Virus record (IMG/VR): IMGVR_UViG_3300000101_000041
Location: 9,084-30,977 of that record
DNA length: 21,894 nt
DNA from: a virus
Reading direction: 5' to 3' (one strand)
In this document: positions 1 through 21,894 of the stretch, in pieces
How the letters are laid out: the number at the start of each line of letters is the position of its first letter
Position numbering within the stretch: position 1 is the stretch's first letter
Translations under genes and position numbers: made by a program
The notes under the pieces: model-generated
The model's database searches: none
Told to the model about the DNA's origin: nothing
Seen by the model: only the letters and a program-made list of their open reading frames with translations

Positions 1-1410
1 ATGCAGTTGCTTGGAGTATTTCAATTACTTGATACGCTGAATGCTACGTTAGCTAAGATTAAAGATCTTGATCCTAAGAAGCTTGCTATTCAACTAGCAC
101 AGAAGCTAAAGATCGATGCCATTAAGAAGAAGATTAAGGACACTATTAAAAAGCTAGTTGAGAAGATCAAGCGTCAAGTTCTCAAGACTGTTAATAGCAT
201 TATTCCACAACTCAAGAATATGGGGTGTGCGAGTAAGGCTTTCTTTAAGAAGATGAGAAAGAAGATAGATCAGATTAACGAGTTCTTCTCTGAAGAGAAT
301 ATAAAGCGTATTAGAGACGAGATTGATACATTCATTAATAACATGGTGGCCAACTTTCAACGTCTGACACTAGAGAATGCTCTTATGCTTATGTATCAGC
401 TATGCCGATTTACTGAGCAGTTACAAGCACTTCTTATGGGAGATGCGAATGAAGTACAGAGAATCGCTATTGTAACACAGAACGAGACAAGGGCATTAGA
501 GTCAGCAGGACTTAAACAGACTATGAAAGCTGTAGAGAATGGAGCAGTACGAGTGGCGCCTGCGGAGCGTCTCAAGAAGCGTGAGGAGGTCATTAAGAAG
601 AATAACGAAGAGTCTAAGAAGTCTAAAGTGCCTAAAGATCATATCACAGATCCTTGTCCAACACAAGAAGAGATGGAGATTATTAATAAGATTAGTGATG
701 CAGGACTAGGCGCTAGTATAACATTTTCTTCTAGTGTTGTCAAGAATAAAGAATGGCAGGATGTCGATAACTCTGTATGGAGTAAGTTACTGCGTATTGT
801 TAAAGCGACAGATACAGAGTATGAAGTCACTAATGGAGTGAAGAAGAAGACTAATACAACTGCTACTATGGGCGGTACATCTAATCATATACATCTAACA
901 GGATTTGCTGTAGATATTTCTATCAATGATAAGAATAGAAAAGATACTATTATAGCCGCCAGTAAAGCCGGATTCTCAGGCATAGGAGTATATAAGACAT
1001 TCCTTCATCTAGACGTAGGAACAAGAAGATCATGGGTGGCCGGAGATAAGGGAATTGATATATCTCCTACTGAACAATTCGCAGGTACCGATCTAGCTGA
1101 TATCAAGAAGATTATGAATAAGCATGATAGTGATGGACATAGAAAGGTTCGTGATGAAGGGGAGGAAGTCGAGATAATTGATTTAAGTACAATAGCTACT
1201 GAAGACTTAACTGAAGAGCAGACTGCCCAGTATTTTAAACAACTTAGGAGTGAAAGACAGAAGAATGATTCTGCAAGATCTTTTGAGTCTGAGAGTATAA
1301 TGAGAGAGGTTGATGCATCATATAATAGTAGAGGTTTAAAGTCAATACGTCAGATGACAAAAGAAGAACTAGAAGAGTTTGATAAATCAGGCAAACGACC
1401 TAAAGCATAG
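1..1410 (+). CDS. Baseplate/tail-associated M15-family peptidase (putative peptidoglycan hydrolase), 5' end possibly cut
   Basis: A 469-residue frame opens with ATG at the first base of the window, so the true start may lie upstream. Residues 15-70 are very rich in lysine and look like amphipathic helices. More helix follows to about residue 145, then a charged linker to about 215. Residues 220-350 resemble the Peptidase_M15_3 type of D-Ala-D-Ala-cleaving zinc peptidases: SNHIHLTGFAVD gives the HxxGxAxD signature (H298, D305), and GIGVYKTFLHLDVG gives the second metal motif (H336, D338). The last 90 residues are charged and low in complexity. Lying directly before the gp25-like gene, it probably makes a virion-borne enzyme that opens peptidoglycan at injection, the job done by the lysozyme domain of gp5 in T4. 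No signal peptide is seen, which fits a virion part better than a secreted enzyme. The family call is good; the baseplate location is inferred from context. Confidence 0.75.
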   Translation: MQLLGVFQLLDTLNATLAKIKDLDPKKLAIQLAQKLKIDAIKKKIKDTIKKLVEKIKRQVLKTVNSIIPQLKNMGCASKAFFKKMRKKIDQINEFFSEENIKRIRDEIDTFINNMVANFQRLTLENALMLMYQLCRFTEQLQALLMGDANEVQRIAIVTQNETRALESAGLKQTMKAVENGAVRVAPAERLKKREEVIKKNNEESKKSKVPKDHITDPCPTQEEMEIINKISDAGLGASITFSSSVVKNKEWQDVDNSVWSKLLRIVKATDTEYEVTNGVKKKTNTTATMGGTSNHIHLTGFAVDISINDKNRKDTIIAASKAGFSGIGVYKTFLHLDVGTRRSWVAGDKGIDISPTEQFAGTDLADIKKIMNKHDSDGHRKVRDEGEEVEIIDLSTIATEDLTEEQTAQYFKQLRSERQKNDSARSFESESIMREVDASYNSRGLKSIRQMTKEELEEFDKSGKRPKA

Positions 1411-1440: not shown

Positions 1441-1848
1441 ATGTCATTAACGCCACGCACACGATCACAAGAGTTCTTCTCTGATTTCACAAGGAATCTA
1501 GAGCAGATACCTGGCCGTAAGGATCTGAGTAGACGTATTAACGAGAATGCTGTAAAAGAGAGCATACATAATCTCGTTATGACGGATCGTGGAGAGCGTT
1601 TATTTCAGCCTAATATAGGATGTGATATACGAGGATCATTGTTTGAGAACATAGATCCCAATACTATATTACTACTGAAAGACAATATTCGATATACGAT
1701 TAATACATATGAACCAAGATGTAATCTACACAACGTAGAAGTTGAAGCTAACATAGACACAAACGATCTGAGAGTAAGAATAGTATTCTCTGTGATAAAT
1801 ACTAGTAACACTTCAGAACTTACAATTGATCTTAATAGGGTAAGATAG
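1441..1848 (+). CDS. gp25: Baseplate wedge subunit, T4 gp25-like
   Basis: The 135-residue protein has the length and motifs of the gp25/GpW-type baseplate wedge family. In T4, gp25 joins gp6 and gp53 at the inner baseplate core, near where the first sheath ring begins. Residues 41-70 carry the family's most conserved stretch, with GERLFQPNIGCDIRGSLFE at 51-69, followed by a helix and the EPR motif at 91-93 (TYEPRC). The C-terminal part (about 97-133) alternates as beta strands. The start at 1441 is supported by AAAGGA nine bases upstream and by the late promoter box. The gp6-like gene follows after four bases, matching the 25-6 order usual in T4-like phages. Confidence 0.92.
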   Translation: MSLTPRTRSQEFFSDFTRNLEQIPGRKDLSRRINENAVKESIHNLVMTDRGERLFQPNIGCDIRGSLFENIDPNTILLLKDNIRYTINTYEPRCNLHNVEVEANIDTNDLRVRIVFSVINTSNTSELTIDLNRVR

Positions 1849-1852
1849 ACAC

Positions 1853-3613
1853 ATGGCCAACTTGTCACCAATAAAAAATTTAGACTTCGCTGAAACGAAA
1901 GAAGCACTCAAGACGTTTCTAAAGAATCAGGATCGTTTCAAGGACTTTGACTACGAAGGCTCTAACACGAATGTGCTACTTGATGTACTATCATATAATA
2001 CGTTCTATAACAACTACTATTATAACATGATGATATCCGAGATGTTTCTGGATAGTGCTAGTCAACGTAATAGCGTATTGAGCCATGCAAAGGAACTTAA
2101 CTATCTTCCTACAAGTAGACGTAGTGCAGGTGCTAAAGCAACGATTAATGTAGTCGCCCCCAATCTAGACAGTAACTACTTTAACATTCCTGCTAATACT
2201 AAGTTCATTGGACGATGTGGTAACAAGACATATAATCTATTAACGGATAAAGCATATACTGCTGTACGATCTAATGGTGATAATAGTCTATATGTTATTG
2301 AGAATGTCGATCTATTTGAAGGCCGTGTGATTAAGGAGACTCTCACGATATCTAATACGACTCTCAGTAATGATGCTATTGATACTCGGTCTCTCAAGAT
2401 CACTGTTAATAACGAGACGTACACATATAGAAGTGATATCTTTGGTGTTTCTTCAACTGATAAAGTCTTCTATCTACAACCTGAGAATGACGGAAAGTAC
2501 TCTCTACAGTTTGGACAGAACAAGTTTGGAGTACAACCTACAGCAACTGATATCATTAAAGCAGAGTATAGAATAGCTTCTGGCCCTTCCGCTAATGGAG
2601 TAACTTCATTGACGATTGGCGCTTTTGGCGGAGCGAGTTCTATAACTGTGAATGTCACGACTGCTACATCGGGCGGATCGATGGCAGAAGATATTGAGTC
2701 AATTCGGACGTTCGCTCCTAAGGCGTTTCAAGTACAAGAGAGAGCAGTAACGAAACGAGACTACGAGACTCTACTACGTTCTCGCTTTCCTAATATTCAA
2801 GCAATCTCTGTATATGGTGGTGATGAAGTTGATCCTCCTCAGTTCGGAAAAGTAATTATCTCAGTTGACGTAACTGGTGGTGAAGGTGCGGCTGACTATG
2901 AGATTGCTAACTTCAAGAACTATCTAAAGGATAAGACTCCATTAACAATTGAGCCTGTCTTTGTTGTTGCTAAGTTTCTATATGTTAGTGCTAACATTAA
3001 TGTTGTCTATGATCCTAATGTAACTAACAAGTCGCCAGCTCAGATTCGATCTGAGTTAAATGACTCTATTATAGCATATCAGAATACAAACCTCAATGAC
3101 TTTAATAAGACACTTCGTCAATCAAGACTAGCGGCATTCCTTGATACTGTTGATGGATCTATTGTATCTTCTGATATTGTGGCTAAGCCTATTATTGAGT
3201 ATGTTCCTACACTTAATCTAGCAACAAGTCCATCATTCTCATTTGAGTCTGAGTTAGTTAAACCTTATCCGTTTGATGACGTAGAAGGCTTTACTACATT
3301 CAAGCCTGCTGTATCATCTAGTAAGTTTACTGTTGATGGATCACTTGTATCAGCAAAGGATGATGGTAAAGGAAACATTATGCTAGTGACTGGTGACACT
3401 ACTGTCGAAAGCGTGTTTAAATCGTCTGTCGGAACTGTTGATTATACTACAGGCGCCATCAAGTTATCTAATCTAAACATTAGTTCATTCCAGAATAAAG
3501 CAATTAAGTTTACTGCTAACACAACGAACAAAGATATTCGTCCTCCAAAAGATCGTATCATCGTGATTCGTGGTGAAGATGTTCTTATAACTGTATCTCC
3601 ATTGGAATCATAA
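1853..3613 (+). CDS. gp6: Baseplate wedge subunit, T4 gp6-like
   Basis: The 586-residue protein resembles T4 gp6 and phage Mu gp47/P2 gpJ-type wedge proteins. In T4 a gp6 dimer in each wedge, with gp7, forms the clamp that ties the six wedges into a ring around the hub. The N-terminal part has the typical opening: DFDYEGSN near residues 31-38, then a helical stretch NVLLDVLSYNTFYNNYYYN and SASQRNSVLSHAKELNYLP. The central part (about 270-320) includes IRTFAPKAFQVQERAVTKRDYETLL, the conserved core of the J/gp47 fold. The rest is beta-rich. It starts four bases after the gp25-like stop with only a weak GGG-type ribosome-binding site, so coupling to gp25 translation is likely. It is shorter than T4 gp6 (about 660 residues) but looks complete. 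Confidence 0.9.
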   Translation: MANLSPIKNLDFAETKEALKTFLKNQDRFKDFDYEGSNTNVLLDVLSYNTFYNNYYYNMMISEMFLDSASQRNSVLSHAKELNYLPTSRRSAGAKATINVVAPNLDSNYFNIPANTKFIGRCGNKTYNLLTDKAYTAVRSNGDNSLYVIENVDLFEGRVIKETLTISNTTLSNDAIDTRSLKITVNNETYTYRSDIFGVSSTDKVFYLQPENDGKYSLQFGQNKFGVQPTATDIIKAEYRIASGPSANGVTSLTIGAFGGASSITVNVTTATSGGSMAEDIESIRTFAPKAFQVQERAVTKRDYETLLRSRFPNIQAISVYGGDEVDPPQFGKVIISVDVTGGEGAADYEIANFKNYLKDKTPLTIEPVFVVAKFLYVSANINVVYDPNVTNKSPAQIRSELNDSIIAYQNTNLNDFNKTLRQSRLAAFLDTVDGSIVSSDIVAKPIIEYVPTLNLATSPSFSFESELVKPYPFDDVEGFTTFKPAVSSSKFTVDGSLVSAKDDGKGNIMLVTGDTTVESVFKSSVGTVDYTTGAIKLSNLNISSFQNKAIKFTANTTNKDIRPPKDRIIVIRGEDVLITVSPLES

Positions 3614-6600: not shown

Positions 6601-6886
6601 AACAGATGTCGCCAATAATCCGTCCAACTTTACAGCACCGAATACAACATATCAAGTTAAGACAGTCGGGTCGATACAGGGCACTGCGCCCAATGAGTAC
6701 AGGAGTGTAACGCTTCATGTTGTTGGGAATTCGGCATTGGACATAACTATTCCTACTATAACTTACAATGCGGCTGCGACAGATCCACTATATTCAACAA
6801 ACGGGCTTATTGTAACATTCCGTTCTGACAACGTAGTTACACAGAATCTAGTTGCAGATATTGCAACTGAAACAGGAGTTTCGTAA
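3617..6886 (+). CDS. gp7: Baseplate wedge initiator, T4 gp7-like, with a large internal insert
   Basis: This 1089-residue protein follows gp6 after three bases. Residues 15-125 (GDFLISFVEAYYEHLDEK, then MYTRKGTQESLELLFKIFF) match, from memory, the C-terminal part of T4 gp7 (FEAFCEAYIQYLSDGYGTQ and STKGIEASYKFLFKVLYN). Residues 840-910 (GRWKSKTSFLSEESKK, NNYYQEYSYDISS) look like the next T4 gp7 segment (YYVMKIKSNLPSSRWKSD). Here the two parts are about 700 residues apart, with a beta-rich insert between them, and the N-terminal half of T4 gp7 is absent. The insert contains a dockerin-like calcium loop at residues 419-430. Residues 920-1089 are a further beta-rich tail. T4 gp7 links gp10, gp8 and the gp6-gp53 core, so this protein probably scaffolds the wedge. 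The stop overlaps the next start (TAATG). Confidence 0.75.
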   Translation: MALNLRSSIYAEIADQFPDVYKENGDFLISFVEAYYEHLDEKMDRDVPKLRDIDSTLSSFIVFFKKKYLADLPLDAAIDVRYVLKHIKDMYTRKGTQESLELLFKIFFDQDIEVFYPSTSILRPSDSIWGGDAYLEMRTVFQVDDYPINKGDRIKGDLSQAGAFVDEVIFVNFSGALSPIIYLSNITGTFSADDGIIVFSADGETNVGKLISGSVSEVNINPLNRIANQKVGDAVSLRSALTGIDGTARVLTTSQQETGSIDFRILDDGFGYIDPASSISVSNKIGISNQVLIVNNANTLQLKPGDIISANASPLTYTGSGDVDAVPYVMNGHAKVIQYNHPLLFVESSNIDDYNTLWSTQAPNGATATGLLTQIISSIAAFGGASAFTDPTVYAPYENWASVLNAPFPVAGETNSAIDIDDNGAVDSIDVQFIANINQLQETDGDTSGLTYSVYGTPALFKYDAFGGATPEASDAVKLQAKRWLRALTLLDFYTPLTAVTTQPTPNADNLQGSLATGVAFPTALQNPSFTVEVNHDSSNTVDIVGLGTPNDTAQFDIGNVRNKETVTLITDQIGDFTNVVLDADGIPSNDDYGMTGPNAENLNTSIADAFSPITITIGSLDTLNVSNAGSNYQNDVFANIEFDLISKFQKHDFILNFDVVDFNLSVGDTIIQNRTIPDIEVGLTGNLSEVEIENLAATSTNGAVGYQDSETSFDYVSGGTIAYESKAKFLKRVGSDFYFRPMSFYQFDESRDDDDVLLTKVLVGGVLKSFSGLREDLTSSVMGNNGKVQGVASYQTGQIDTVAITKTGYRYTDGEAVEIFNEEVDSPSYGKKIADATIRTLGQGKTAGRWKSKTSFLSEESKKIHDNNYYQEYSYDISSIIDPKKYTGLISDVVGVAGTKLFSTPLINSDNVIDTTLDAEFVYYNIESQNFIATNGVSDFEYVTQNSVTYPGVNASGVNYAPSTLIFSNNTIGVFTTFDYVPQVGDFVQMTGGGTDVANNPSNFTAPNTTYQVKTVGSIQGTAPNEYRSVTLHVVGNSALDITIPTITYNAAATDPLYSTNGLIVTFRSDNVVTQNLVADIATETGVS
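4871..4906 (+). other. Dockerin/EF-hand-like calcium-binding loop inside the gp7-like protein
   Basis: Residues 419-430 read DIDDNGAVDSID. They place D, D, N at loop positions 1, 3, 5, G at 6, a hydrophobic residue at 8 and D at 12, which is the calcium loop of a type-I dockerin repeat. A helix-like VQFIANINQL follows, as in dockerins. Only one such loop is clear, whereas true dockerins have two. The motif is seen directly; calcium binding is inferred. Confidence 0.6.
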
Positions 6887-7722
6887 TGGCTACATTAAGA
6901 ATACAATCAGACGGCGATCCGTTTCCTGCGAAGGCTGGGCATAACGGAACAAATGTTCCAAAGAATGATGGTAGTGCTAGAACATTCCAAGACTCATCGA
7001 ATATTGCAGATCAGAGTAACGACTTCACTATTAAATATAGAGGCGGAAGTAATACTTCCAATCCTCAGATTGTCGATAAGGATTTGCCGATAGGTATAAC
7101 GACAACGGGTGTTGTTATATACTCACCAATGGCACCGAATTCGGTTTTACCAGTTTCTGGACAGGCGGCACCACCTGGATATCACTGGAATATCATAGAG
7201 AATCAAACAGAATTTTATCAAGATCTCTGTGGTGGAAAGCCAGAGACTGGTGGAGAGTATAGATACAGAAGTGGTGGGTTCTATACAAATGGACTTCAAA
7301 GTAATTCATCATTCACAGGATCTAGTACATATTATACTAATGGTACTGAGCATCCAGATGGACACTCTAGAATCTTAGGATATGCATTTGATGGATACCC
7401 AATATACGGCCCAATGGGATACGCTTCACCGACAGATAATGCATCTGCTGTGATCAGGATGGAGTCTAGTTATACTGTTAGACCAACACCACTAGCATCT
7501 AGACTTAACGGATATGATATAATCCCTCAAGGTAAGTTCTGTGAAGATTATGAGTATACATCTTCAGGAAATTTAGATGAATATAATGGAAGATATTGTG
7601 TTACCCCAGATTACACAAACGGAACATACGCATACTTCTTGACATTCTCGGACGGAACATTTACTTCTCCTGCATATCCATATATAGTAGGTAGAAGCAC
7701 AAAAGAACAAAGATCGTCATAA
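6886..7722 (+). CDS. YHYH-domain virion protein
   Basis: This 278-residue protein resembles the YHYH domain family, whose biochemical role is not established. The defining block is GGEYRYRSGGFYTNG: the usual YHYH reads YRYR at residues 125-128. It is followed by HPDGHSRILGYAFDGYPIYG (156-175) and FCEDYEYTSSGNLDEYNGRYCVTPDYTNGTYAYF (219-251, given here in consecutive parts: FCEDYEYTSSG, NLDEYNGRYCV, TPDYTNGTYAYF), which are strong family matches. Cysteines 219 and 238 could pair. Residues 1-70 form a separate head with DLPIGITTTGVVIYSP at its end. The gene overlaps the gp7 stop (TAATG) with AGGAG seven bases before the ATG, and the gp8-like gene follows after 18 bases, so the product is very likely a baseplate part. 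There is no signal peptide. Family call high, function unknown. Confidence 0.8.
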   Translation: MATLRIQSDGDPFPAKAGHNGTNVPKNDGSARTFQDSSNIADQSNDFTIKYRGGSNTSNPQIVDKDLPIGITTTGVVIYSPMAPNSVLPVSGQAAPPGYHWNIIENQTEFYQDLCGGKPETGGEYRYRSGGFYTNGLQSNSSFTGSSTYYTNGTEHPDGHSRILGYAFDGYPIYGPMGYASPTDNASAVIRMESSYTVRPTPLASRLNGYDIIPQGKFCEDYEYTSSGNLDEYNGRYCVTPDYTNGTYAYFLTFSDGTFTSPAYPYIVGRSTKEQRSS

Positions 7723-20311: not shown

Positions 20312-21894
20312 ATGTCAAGTATTACAAATGTAAACCAAAACACATCAGTAGTAAACGTAGGTAGGACGACTCCTGTATCACCAGGCGCCCAAAACGCTGA
20401 CAAGTCTATACCAGTAGTAATGGCTTCGGATCAGACTCCTATTCCTGTTGTTGAGCAGAATAAGGTTCAGTCTGAAGTAGCACTATCGCTTCTAGGTATT
20501 CCAAGAGCAGAAGTTGCACTAGGTATCTTTGCTGACGTAAATACTTATGACGTTAACCCGTCAGAATGGTCAATGCAGCCTGCGTTCCATATTCCAGGCG
20601 ATGGTGTACAGCATCTCCCTACAGAAGCCGGTGCGCTCGTAGAGGCATCTCGAAACAAGACAGCGGTATTGACATCTAAGCGTTTCTTCAGATATCAGCC
20701 AGGTCGTGTATCTGCCGCCACTTTCGGTGTTAAGAGTTCTGTATCTATTGCAAACTTTGCACAGAATCCTGCCATTCGCAAGTTTGGTATCTATGATAAG
20801 TATGATGGCTACTACTGGGAAACTAGAAATAACGCTCAAGGTGATAACTTTGGTGTAGTTCGTAGAACGCAATCTCTTCCAAATGCTCCACTAAGCACAT
20901 ATGGTATAGGAGGCGCTACTGCCGCTACTACGCCACTTAGAGGCGATGGTGCCGCACCCGGTAACGTAACAACTACTCAGCTAGACGACTATAGAATAGT
21001 TGGTTTAGGTGCAAGCGAAAAGTCATCTGAAGATGCTGGTCTAGCTGTTGCGGATAGAAAGATTTTAACTGATAATAGATTTGCTATTATTGATGCAGTA
21101 CTTGCGAGTGCAATAGGAACTTATGGTACACCTGCTTCTGGTCAAACCATTGTAGGATCAACTGCAACTACAACTGGTAGCGGATATTATGCTGACTTTG
21201 TGGCAGCCTATAACGCTGTGAACGGTATCTCCGGCTTTACTGTGGATCAAATAAAAGCTAAGTGTAAACGAGATCTAGACTACTGGATAGATAACTATCT
21301 TCTCGATTTAAAGCACGGTGGTGATGCACACACAAAGATCAATACAACTAACTTTGCGCTGTCTGGTGGTACTGATTTTGATTATGACACTGGTAATAAC
21401 AATGTAAGAGTTGGTGTATTCCCTGCTCAACCAACAGTATTTGAAACGCCAGTACACCAAGCGTTTAAGACTTACATAGATGCTAATAGTATTTCATTAA
21501 GCACTCAGGCCGAAACTGACCTTAAAAGTTTAATCGATATCACAATAGCTTCTTACAATGGAACTGTATTTACGCCAGCAACTATTACATCGGGCGTAAA
21601 CTATGGAACTAAGGATAAGTTAGAAACTTTCTTTGACGTTAAGAAACAGTTCTGGTCATACTATGTAACTACTAAAAGTATTGTTGTGGATGTTATTGCC
21701 GATGCAGGTGCCAGTAATATTAACTACACTGTCCCGACTGGTGTCGGTCTAAGCGCCGCATTTACTGAGACAGAACTTAAATATAAATGTCAGCGTGATG
21801 TTGGGTATGTCATTGATGGATATAAGAATGATATTCTAGCAGATGCTAACGCAGAAACTGTATATAATGCAAGTATGTTCACTAGGGGTACAGG
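20312..21894 (+). CDS. Large virion structural protein, probable tail fibre component (3' end cut off)
   Basis: The frame opens with ATG at 20312, nine bases after the fibre stop, with AGGAA close upstream, and stays open to the window end (527 codons). It begins SSITNVNQNTSVVNVGRTTP and continues with KVQSEVALSLLGIPRAEVAL (52-71), GIFADVNTYDVNPSEW (72-87), RFFRYQPGRVSAATFGVK and RKFGIYDKYDGYYWETRN. From memory these blocks are typical of large virion proteins of T4-like marine phages. Two 28-residue units with a CxRD core (314-341 and 489-516) repeat about 175 residues apart. The function is not established; its place after the fibres suggests a fibre or fibre-anchor role. The full length cannot be given. 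Confidence 0.8.
   Translation, partial: MSSITNVNQNTSVVNVGRTTPVSPGAQNADKSIPVVMASDQTPIPVVEQNKVQSEVALSLLGIPRAEVALGIFADVNTYDVNPSEWSMQPAFHIPGDGVQHLPTEAGALVEASRNKTAVLTSKRFFRYQPGRVSAATFGVKSSVSIANFAQNPAIRKFGIYDKYDGYYWETRNNAQGDNFGVVRRTQSLPNAPLSTYGIGGATAATTPLRGDGAAPGNVTTTQLDDYRIVGLGASEKSSEDAGLAVADRKILTDNRFAIIDAVLASAIGTYGTPASGQTIVGSTATTTGSGYYADFVAAYNAVNGISGFTVDQIKAKCKRDLDYWIDNYLLDLKHGGDAHTKINTTNFALSGGTDFDYDTGNNNVRVGVFPAQPTVFETPVHQAFKTYIDANSISLSTQAETDLKSLIDITIASYNGTVFTPATITSGVNYGTKDKLETFFDVKKQFWSYYVTTKSIVVDVIADAGASNINYTVPTGVGLSAAFTETELKYKCQRDVGYVIDGYKNDILADANAETVYNASMFTRGT
21251..21334 (+). repeat. Internal protein repeat unit 1 (CxRDxxYxIDxY)
   Basis: Residues 314-341 of the truncated virion protein include KAKCKRDLDYWIDNYLLDL. 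Twelve of 28 residues are identical to unit 2 at 21776-21859, with no gap needed. The Cys, Arg-Asp, Tyr and Ile-Asp positions are kept. Such units recur in large marine phage fibre proteins. Confidence 0.65.
21776..21859 (+). repeat. Internal protein repeat unit 2 (CxRDxxYxIDxY)
   Basis: Residues 489-516 include KYKCQRDVGYVIDGYKNDI. It pairs with unit 1 at 21251-21334, starting 525 bases later, which implies a repeat domain of about 175 residues that may continue beyond the window. Confidence 0.65.

Follow-up and report, generated by a model that had tools for sequence, protein, structure and literature searches.

Phages with contractile tails must open the cell wall to enter their host, and the lysozyme-bearing spike of T4 is the textbook case: its gp5 carries an OB domain and a lysozyme on the same chain. 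The closest known counterparts of the protein analysed here are the "peptidase M15" proteins of the Sinorhizobium phages phiM12 (AGR47776.1), phiN3, phiM7 and phiM19 (phrog_25247; UniProt S5M6U0, "Murein endopeptidase K"). In phiM12 and phiN3, the annotated M15 peptidase comprises 520 amino acids and is encoded between gp5 and gp25. The gp5 of phiM12 additionally has a C-terminal glycanase-like domain, and a separate annotated endolysin is encoded elsewhere in its genome (NC_027204, 163127-163759). In Methylophilales phage Melnitz, gp5 shows a weak VanY/M15 match beside the OB domain, while gp5 of Rhizobium phage IG49 (L014:8968-9882) combines OB with CHAP (E 4.9e-11) and has no lysozyme domain. 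M15 domains also occur in MepK/YcbK and in Ply500-type endopeptidases, which are host or lysis enzymes. For the Anabaena myophage A-1(L), the published account describes a hub protein, gp15, with both peptidase and glycan-cutting domains, for which lytic activity and active-site mutants were tested (PMC10966104). A helical M15 hub protein is not described beyond database annotation in the part of the open-access literature consulted.

The window, the whole stretch of DNA analysed here, is 21,894 nucleotides long and corresponds to positions 9084-30977 of the virus record IMGVR_UViG_3300000101_000041, which has 40,624 bases. The gene of the M15 protein, hereafter X, is truncated by the window edge. 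Its frame runs on upstream, and in the longer source record the full ORF encodes 652 amino acids, not 469, with the ATG at window base 1 corresponding to Met184 of the full-length protein (Table 1). The ORF at 1-1410 (+), originally predicted to carry an M15 domain and to precede gp25, is real, Pfam matches confirm both its M15 domain and gp25 as the next gene, and extending the sequence upstream located both the true start of X and a gp5 gene directly before it. What had been taken for the N-terminal 70 residues is the segment 184-253, inside the all-helical middle of the protein; the apparent N-terminus was made by the window edge. Taken as a whole, the original observation was partly confirmed and its interpretation partly supported. 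For the first 181 residues of X, neither tblastn against phages nor the Pfam and PHROG profiles returned a match. At the other end, the C-terminal extension is the least conserved part of X within the window group, and is nearly absent in the three members of alignment A2 from outside that group.

Table 1. Coordinates of X, its domains and predicted zinc-site residues, and its neighbouring genes.
Feature	Position	Strand	Remarks
gp5 (OB domain)	L002:6887-8458		Directly upstream of X; PF06714 E 7e-6; phrog_430 E 1.2e-34
X, full gene	L002:8535-10493		652 aa; start 549 bases upstream of window
X, C-terminal 469 residues and stop	window 1..1410	+	
Rest of helical middle domain of X, residues 184-388	window 1..615	+	Holds Cys318 and the lineage-specific basic stretch
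Basic stretch of X, residues 184-253	window 1-210	+	
Cys318 of X (window residue 135)	window 403-405		Cys176 lies upstream of window
M15 zinc-peptidase domain of X, residues ~436-528	window 757..1035	+	
H298 (full-length H481), predicted zinc ligand	window 892..894	+	His in 68/72 relatives
D305 (full-length D488), predicted zinc ligand	window 913..915	+	Asp in 68/72
H336 (full-length H519), predicted zinc ligand	window 1006..1008	+	His in 72/72
D338 (full-length D521), conserved Asp of HxD motif	window 1012..1014	+	Asp in 71/72; Ala in L038
C-terminal extension of X, residues 531-652	window 1042..1407	+	
gp25 (baseplate wedge)	window 1441..1848	+	Next gene 3' of X; PF04965 E 2.6e-15
gp6 (baseplate wedge)	window 1853..3613	+	

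The relatives of X were collected by repeated IMG/VR searches, one search of GTDB genomes and one search of a single genome; in one of the family searches, 80 of 101 relatives were kept. The resulting set holds 72 distinct complete family proteins of 506-652 amino acids, phage records included. It is restricted to complete ORFs and leaves out L120-L122, which are plain phiM12 stretches, and L179 and L180, which are covered by L181 and L182. At an earlier stage the set numbered 62 proteins; a 40% identity level split its 30 representatives into five lineages, one of them the lineage of the window. Alignment A3 contains 35 family rows, and the two trees were built from 30 of the 62 proteins and from 29 of the 72, the latter showing the zinc-loss clade described below. 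The deepest branches of both (the window lineage, phiM12/phiN3 and L128) are long and unsure. The group is a broad and mostly uncultured one of T4-like phages. Named phages with a relative covering more than half of the window protein are limited to the four Sinorhizobium phages, represented by 7 records. In the phages collection, no named phage carries the X type of L024, and the type of L023 matches just 62 residues of M15 sequence in a single Nostoc phage endolysin. A genome match was found in a Rhodobacteraceae metagenome bin (G005, the source of the relative L177), in which contigs C86, C108 and C110 each carry a gp5-X pair; the binning of these phage contigs is a weak indication of the host. 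The whole-gene dN/dS of X was 0.25 between L006 and L011, a sign of purifying selection that argues against an ORF arising by chance.

Both gene position and sequence mark X as an ortholog of the phiM12-type peptidase, and on these grounds we regard it as a distant, syntenic member of this already annotated family. The phrog_25247 profile matches residues 158-531 of 652, spanning the helical and M15 parts (E 4.6e-15). Residues 158-528 align with the phiM12 protein at 24% identity; identity to the Sinorhizobium phage proteins is only about 24-27%. The two share gene order, domain order, the M15 domain, and the residues Ser170, Cys176 and Cys318. They differ in that the helical part of the phiM12-type protein is not basic, the C-terminal extension is missing from it, and the gp5 of the window virus has no counterpart of the glycanase-like domain of phiM12 gp5.

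In the source record, the genes are arranged in the order gp48-gp53-gp27-gp5-X-gp25-gp6, followed by further wedge genes downstream of gp6; phiM12 and phiN3 share this arrangement. Upstream of X, the series begins with a tail-tube-cap protein (phrog_230) and gp53, followed by a tail protein (phrog_350), which we name gp27-like after the annotation of the phiM12 gene in the corresponding position, and then gp5. Within the 62-protein set, all 39 relatives whose upstream flank exceeds 1.8 kb have gp5 directly before X, and all 60 whose downstream flank exceeds 0.7 kb have gp25 after it. The commonest spacing on either side of X is a 1-base overlap. Rfam and tRNA scans gave no match bearing on X. 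In one relative, L025, gp5 is split into two ORFs (L025:3342-5015), a sequencing error or a true break, while the near-identical L024 has a single ORF of 557 amino acids.

The C-terminal part of X carries an M15-type zinc peptidase domain with the correct zinc residues, from which peptidase activity is predicted. Its two Pfam matches barely exceed their cut-offs: PF05951 scored 27.8 bits (cut-off 27, E 2.4e-6), which places the domain in the MepK/DUF882 family, and PF08291 scored 23.9 bits (cut-off 23.2, E 4.7e-5). MepK/DUF882 is also its best-named cellular relative. MepK/YcbK (DUF882, PF05951) is reported to prefer 3-3 cross-links (PMC9249393). The four residues H298, D305, H336 and D338 named in the original prediction were correctly read, as a check of their codons confirmed. 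An H-x6-D ... H zinc triad is present in the window part of X, and the H-D-H set is intact in 68 of the 72 distinct complete relatives. The family profile retrieves the Streptomyces zinc DD-carboxypeptidase 1lbu (E 1.2e-6), with hedgehog proteins as the next matches. For structural comparison, the AlphaFold model of L177 (pLDDT 68.8 for the whole model, ~82-94 for the M15 part) was the better guide, as the model for X of the window lineage is poor (pLDDT 54.7). Compared by VIA, the M15 part of L177 aligns with Ply500 (Z 9.3), 1lbu (Z 8.7) and VanX (Z 8.2) as well as with LdcB and MepA; the highest scores belong to hedgehogs, which have the same fold as M15 (Z up to 10.2). Foldseek alone returned no PDB match for the L177 model at E <= 0.001.

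In the window virus, gp5 gave no lysozyme-type match among Pfam and PHROGs, either over its whole length or over its last 252 residues; PHROG families named "tail lysozyme" do match, over the OB part only. Profiles of T4 lysozyme (PF00959), phrog_90 and GH19 (PF00182) found nothing in the window record or in a 65 kb near-copy. By comparison, the C-terminal domain of phiM12 gp5 matches phrog_430 (E 1.3e-27) and phrog_90, named "endolysin" (E 6.4e-14), and the gp5 proteins of L177 and L128 match phrog_90 as well (E 4.8e-19 and 1.1e-22). In these three proteins the domain has no credible Pfam match, and its label as glycanase-like rests on the PHROG names and on a muramidase note in the phiM12 record. 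A profile search detects the domain directly before X in 18 of the 68 relatives with a readable upstream gene, phiM12 among them, and does not detect it in 50; the upstream gene was taken as the closest ORF of ~100 amino acids or more on the same strand and treated as gp5 by its position. A further four of the 72 have no readable upstream gene. On the trees, this distribution needs three changes. The original prediction had placed M15 in the role of the spike lysozyme. This holds for the present virus, whose gp5 adjoins X upstream and has no lysozyme-type match, so that the neighbouring gp5-type lysozyme that would have spoken against the idea was not found. It does not extend to the group, since 18 of 68 relatives have both domains.

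The zinc site is destroyed in four of the 72 relatives (L181, L182, L183 and L184), in which Tyr replaces the first His and Ser or Leu the Asp; two of three ligands are lost, and the remainder of X is intact. These relatives, two bin contigs and two IMG/VR contigs, form one clade (support 100/98), and all four carry the glycanase-like domain of gp5. The site is thus decayed in 4 of 18 relatives with that domain and in 0 of 50 without it, a contrast that goes back to a single loss event on the tree and is suggestive only for that reason. It suggests redundancy between the peptidase and the glycan cutter. Loss of the metal residues in relatives, which had been named as evidence against a wall-cutting X, does occur, in this one clade; it qualifies the idea and does not overturn it. 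As far as the domain matches tell, the peptidase appears to be the steadier part of the hub and the glycanase-like domain the varying one.

The helical middle domain of X shows a different pattern of conservation. In the window, residues 184-253 are predicted to be helical and have a net charge of +10, in agreement with the original description of a basic, helical segment. Among 53 proteins compared, the aligned segment has a charge of +9 or +10 in the six near-identical window-type proteins only; in the other 47 it ranges from -15 to +4, with a mean of -5.5. Because the charge is specific to one lineage, the earlier suggestion of binding to DNA or to acidic tail parts is unlikely as a conserved role, and we discarded a basic DNA- or tube-binding arm as a function of the family. 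Two hydrophobic helices of X bear the invariant cysteines. The maximal 19-residue Kyte-Doolittle mean varies from 1.28 in X of the window to 2.03 in L023, and a conserved transmembrane segment was accordingly rejected. Since these helices reach strong hydrophobicity in certain relatives but not in X of the window, contact with the membrane is possible in some lineages only. Ser170, Cys176 and Cys318 are invariant in all 72 relatives, even where lineages share as little as 20-30% identity. This suggests that X has a structural role in addition to catalysis; a disulphide or an assembly contact is possible. The four zinc-site-loss relatives keep these residues too, so the helical part probably has a job of its own. 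Structure searches with both models returned no confident fold or solved relative for this domain: the window-lineage model gave only helical-bundle noise, and the L177 model gave good fold matches for its M15 part only. Searched against a viral structure library, the L177 model had a single match within E 0.001, the phiM12 protein.

From this evidence, we consider it likely that X is a structural component of a T4-like baseplate hub whose C-terminal zinc M15 endopeptidase cuts peptidoglycan at entry. X would be made from the hub operon along with gp27 and the spike protein gp5, and would assemble into or under the hub via its N-terminal and helical domains. Tail contraction would then bring it into the periplasm, where the M15 domain, judging from its family, would cut peptide stems or cross-links of peptidoglycan and allow the tube to pass. 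No wall-cutting domain other than that of X is recognised in the hub of this virus; in other lineages, X would act together with a gp5 whose C-terminus carries a fused glycanase. As in T4, the wall-cutting enzyme is encoded in the hub operon. The enzyme of X differs in being an M15 domain on a separate protein, which has no OB or lysozyme match of its own. Its separateness also distinguishes X from A-1(L) gp15, where all domains share one hub chain, and from the Melnitz and IG49 proteins, in which the enzyme is fused to the OB protein. MepK/YcbK and the Ply500-type enzymes share the M15 domain family and fold with X and lack the helical hub domain.

X could also be chiefly a scaffold of the hub or the tail lumen, with the peptidase as a secondary, dispensable add-on. 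The invariance of Ser170, Cys176 and Cys318 even in the zinc-dead relatives fits this reading, as do tape-measure profiles that weakly match the helices of the phiM12 protein (E 7e-4 to 4e-3). Among four segments compared between L006 and L011 of the window group, the helical domain also has the lowest dN/dS, at 0.089 against 0.398 for the M15 domain, a value based on few changes, and ~0.4 for the C-terminal extension. The zinc site is nevertheless kept in nearly all relatives, including every one whose gp5 lacks the glycanase-like domain. In the L023 group, constraint on the M15 domain equals or exceeds that on the entire protein (dN/dS 0.17 vs 0.20; 0.10 vs 0.13). We regard this reading as unlikely.

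Nor is it probable that X is a late-made endolysin that bursts the cell and is merely sited in the baseplate cluster, even though many M15_3 proteins are endolysins, PHROG matches of the X family include phrog_2649 and phrog_894, both named "endolysin", and the M15 part of L028 has several endolysin matches. Also in favour of this rival, five profiles revealed no other lytic enzyme in the window record, which is incomplete. Against it, X is far larger than its peptidase domain, and every family search picks up its large, conserved N-terminal and helical portion. Wherever the flanking sequence suffices, the protein also keeps a fixed place, with gp5 on one side and gp25 on the other, and the zinc-dead clade retains the rest of X, which would be unexpected of a sole endolysin. 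Together with this fixed position, the separate endolysin of phiM12 and the additional lytic matches of Melnitz favour a role at entry. A non-wall substrate, such as a phage protein in tail assembly or a host envelope protein, is highly improbable, as the fold and motif matches are peptidoglycan peptidases besides the same-fold hedgehogs, and the sole zinc-decayed clade has a gp5 glycan cutter, which suggests a shared wall target.

X is thus a real, conserved protein and probably a hub-borne wall peptidase, in a lineage whose spike has no recognised enzyme. Across the group, the peptide cutter stays on a hub protein of its own and the spike may acquire or lose a glycan cutter, so that the varying glycan cutter offers a natural experiment on which wall bond must be cut for entry; phiM12 is a cultured phage with both domains. 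More tentatively, and on balance doubtfully, the hub may contain two separately losable wall-cutting slots, the gp5 glycanase and the X peptidase, with at least one always kept in the phages sampled. Under that proposal, X would be a helical hub part with fixed Ser/Cys/Cys residues and a structural function, perhaps lining a channel or facing the membrane, with a job at DNA entry.

Several further observations were made in the compared phages. L119 encodes a 163-amino-acid M15 protein (L119:5872-6363) that matches the M15 part of the family and has no helical domain; it is possibly an endolysin. In Melnitz (EXVC044M), two adjacent hub genes (L013:8983-12026) show weak VanY/M15 and PHROG endolysin matches, and GH108 and Hydrolase_2 matches occur elsewhere in its genome. 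The Melnitz paper, by contrast, reports no lysin-like gene besides gp67 (PMC9004378). The S-PM2 gene annotated as "base plate lysozyme" (L016:9904-10998) has no Pfam lysozyme match, and the sole PF00959 match of that phage lies far away. BLASTP gave no sign of homology between X and the protein that follows gp5 in either Melnitz or S-PM2, and this relationship was set aside.

Within the window, one gene amid those for the baseplate wedge encodes a YHYH-domain protein (window 6886-7722; PF14240 E 3.4e-30), which in addition matches portions of PHROGs of very large virion proteins. Towards its 3' end (window 20312-21892, and L003), the record carries several structural genes of great length. The last ORF of the record, open-ended at 1144 amino acids, appears leucine-rich-repeat-like by eye.
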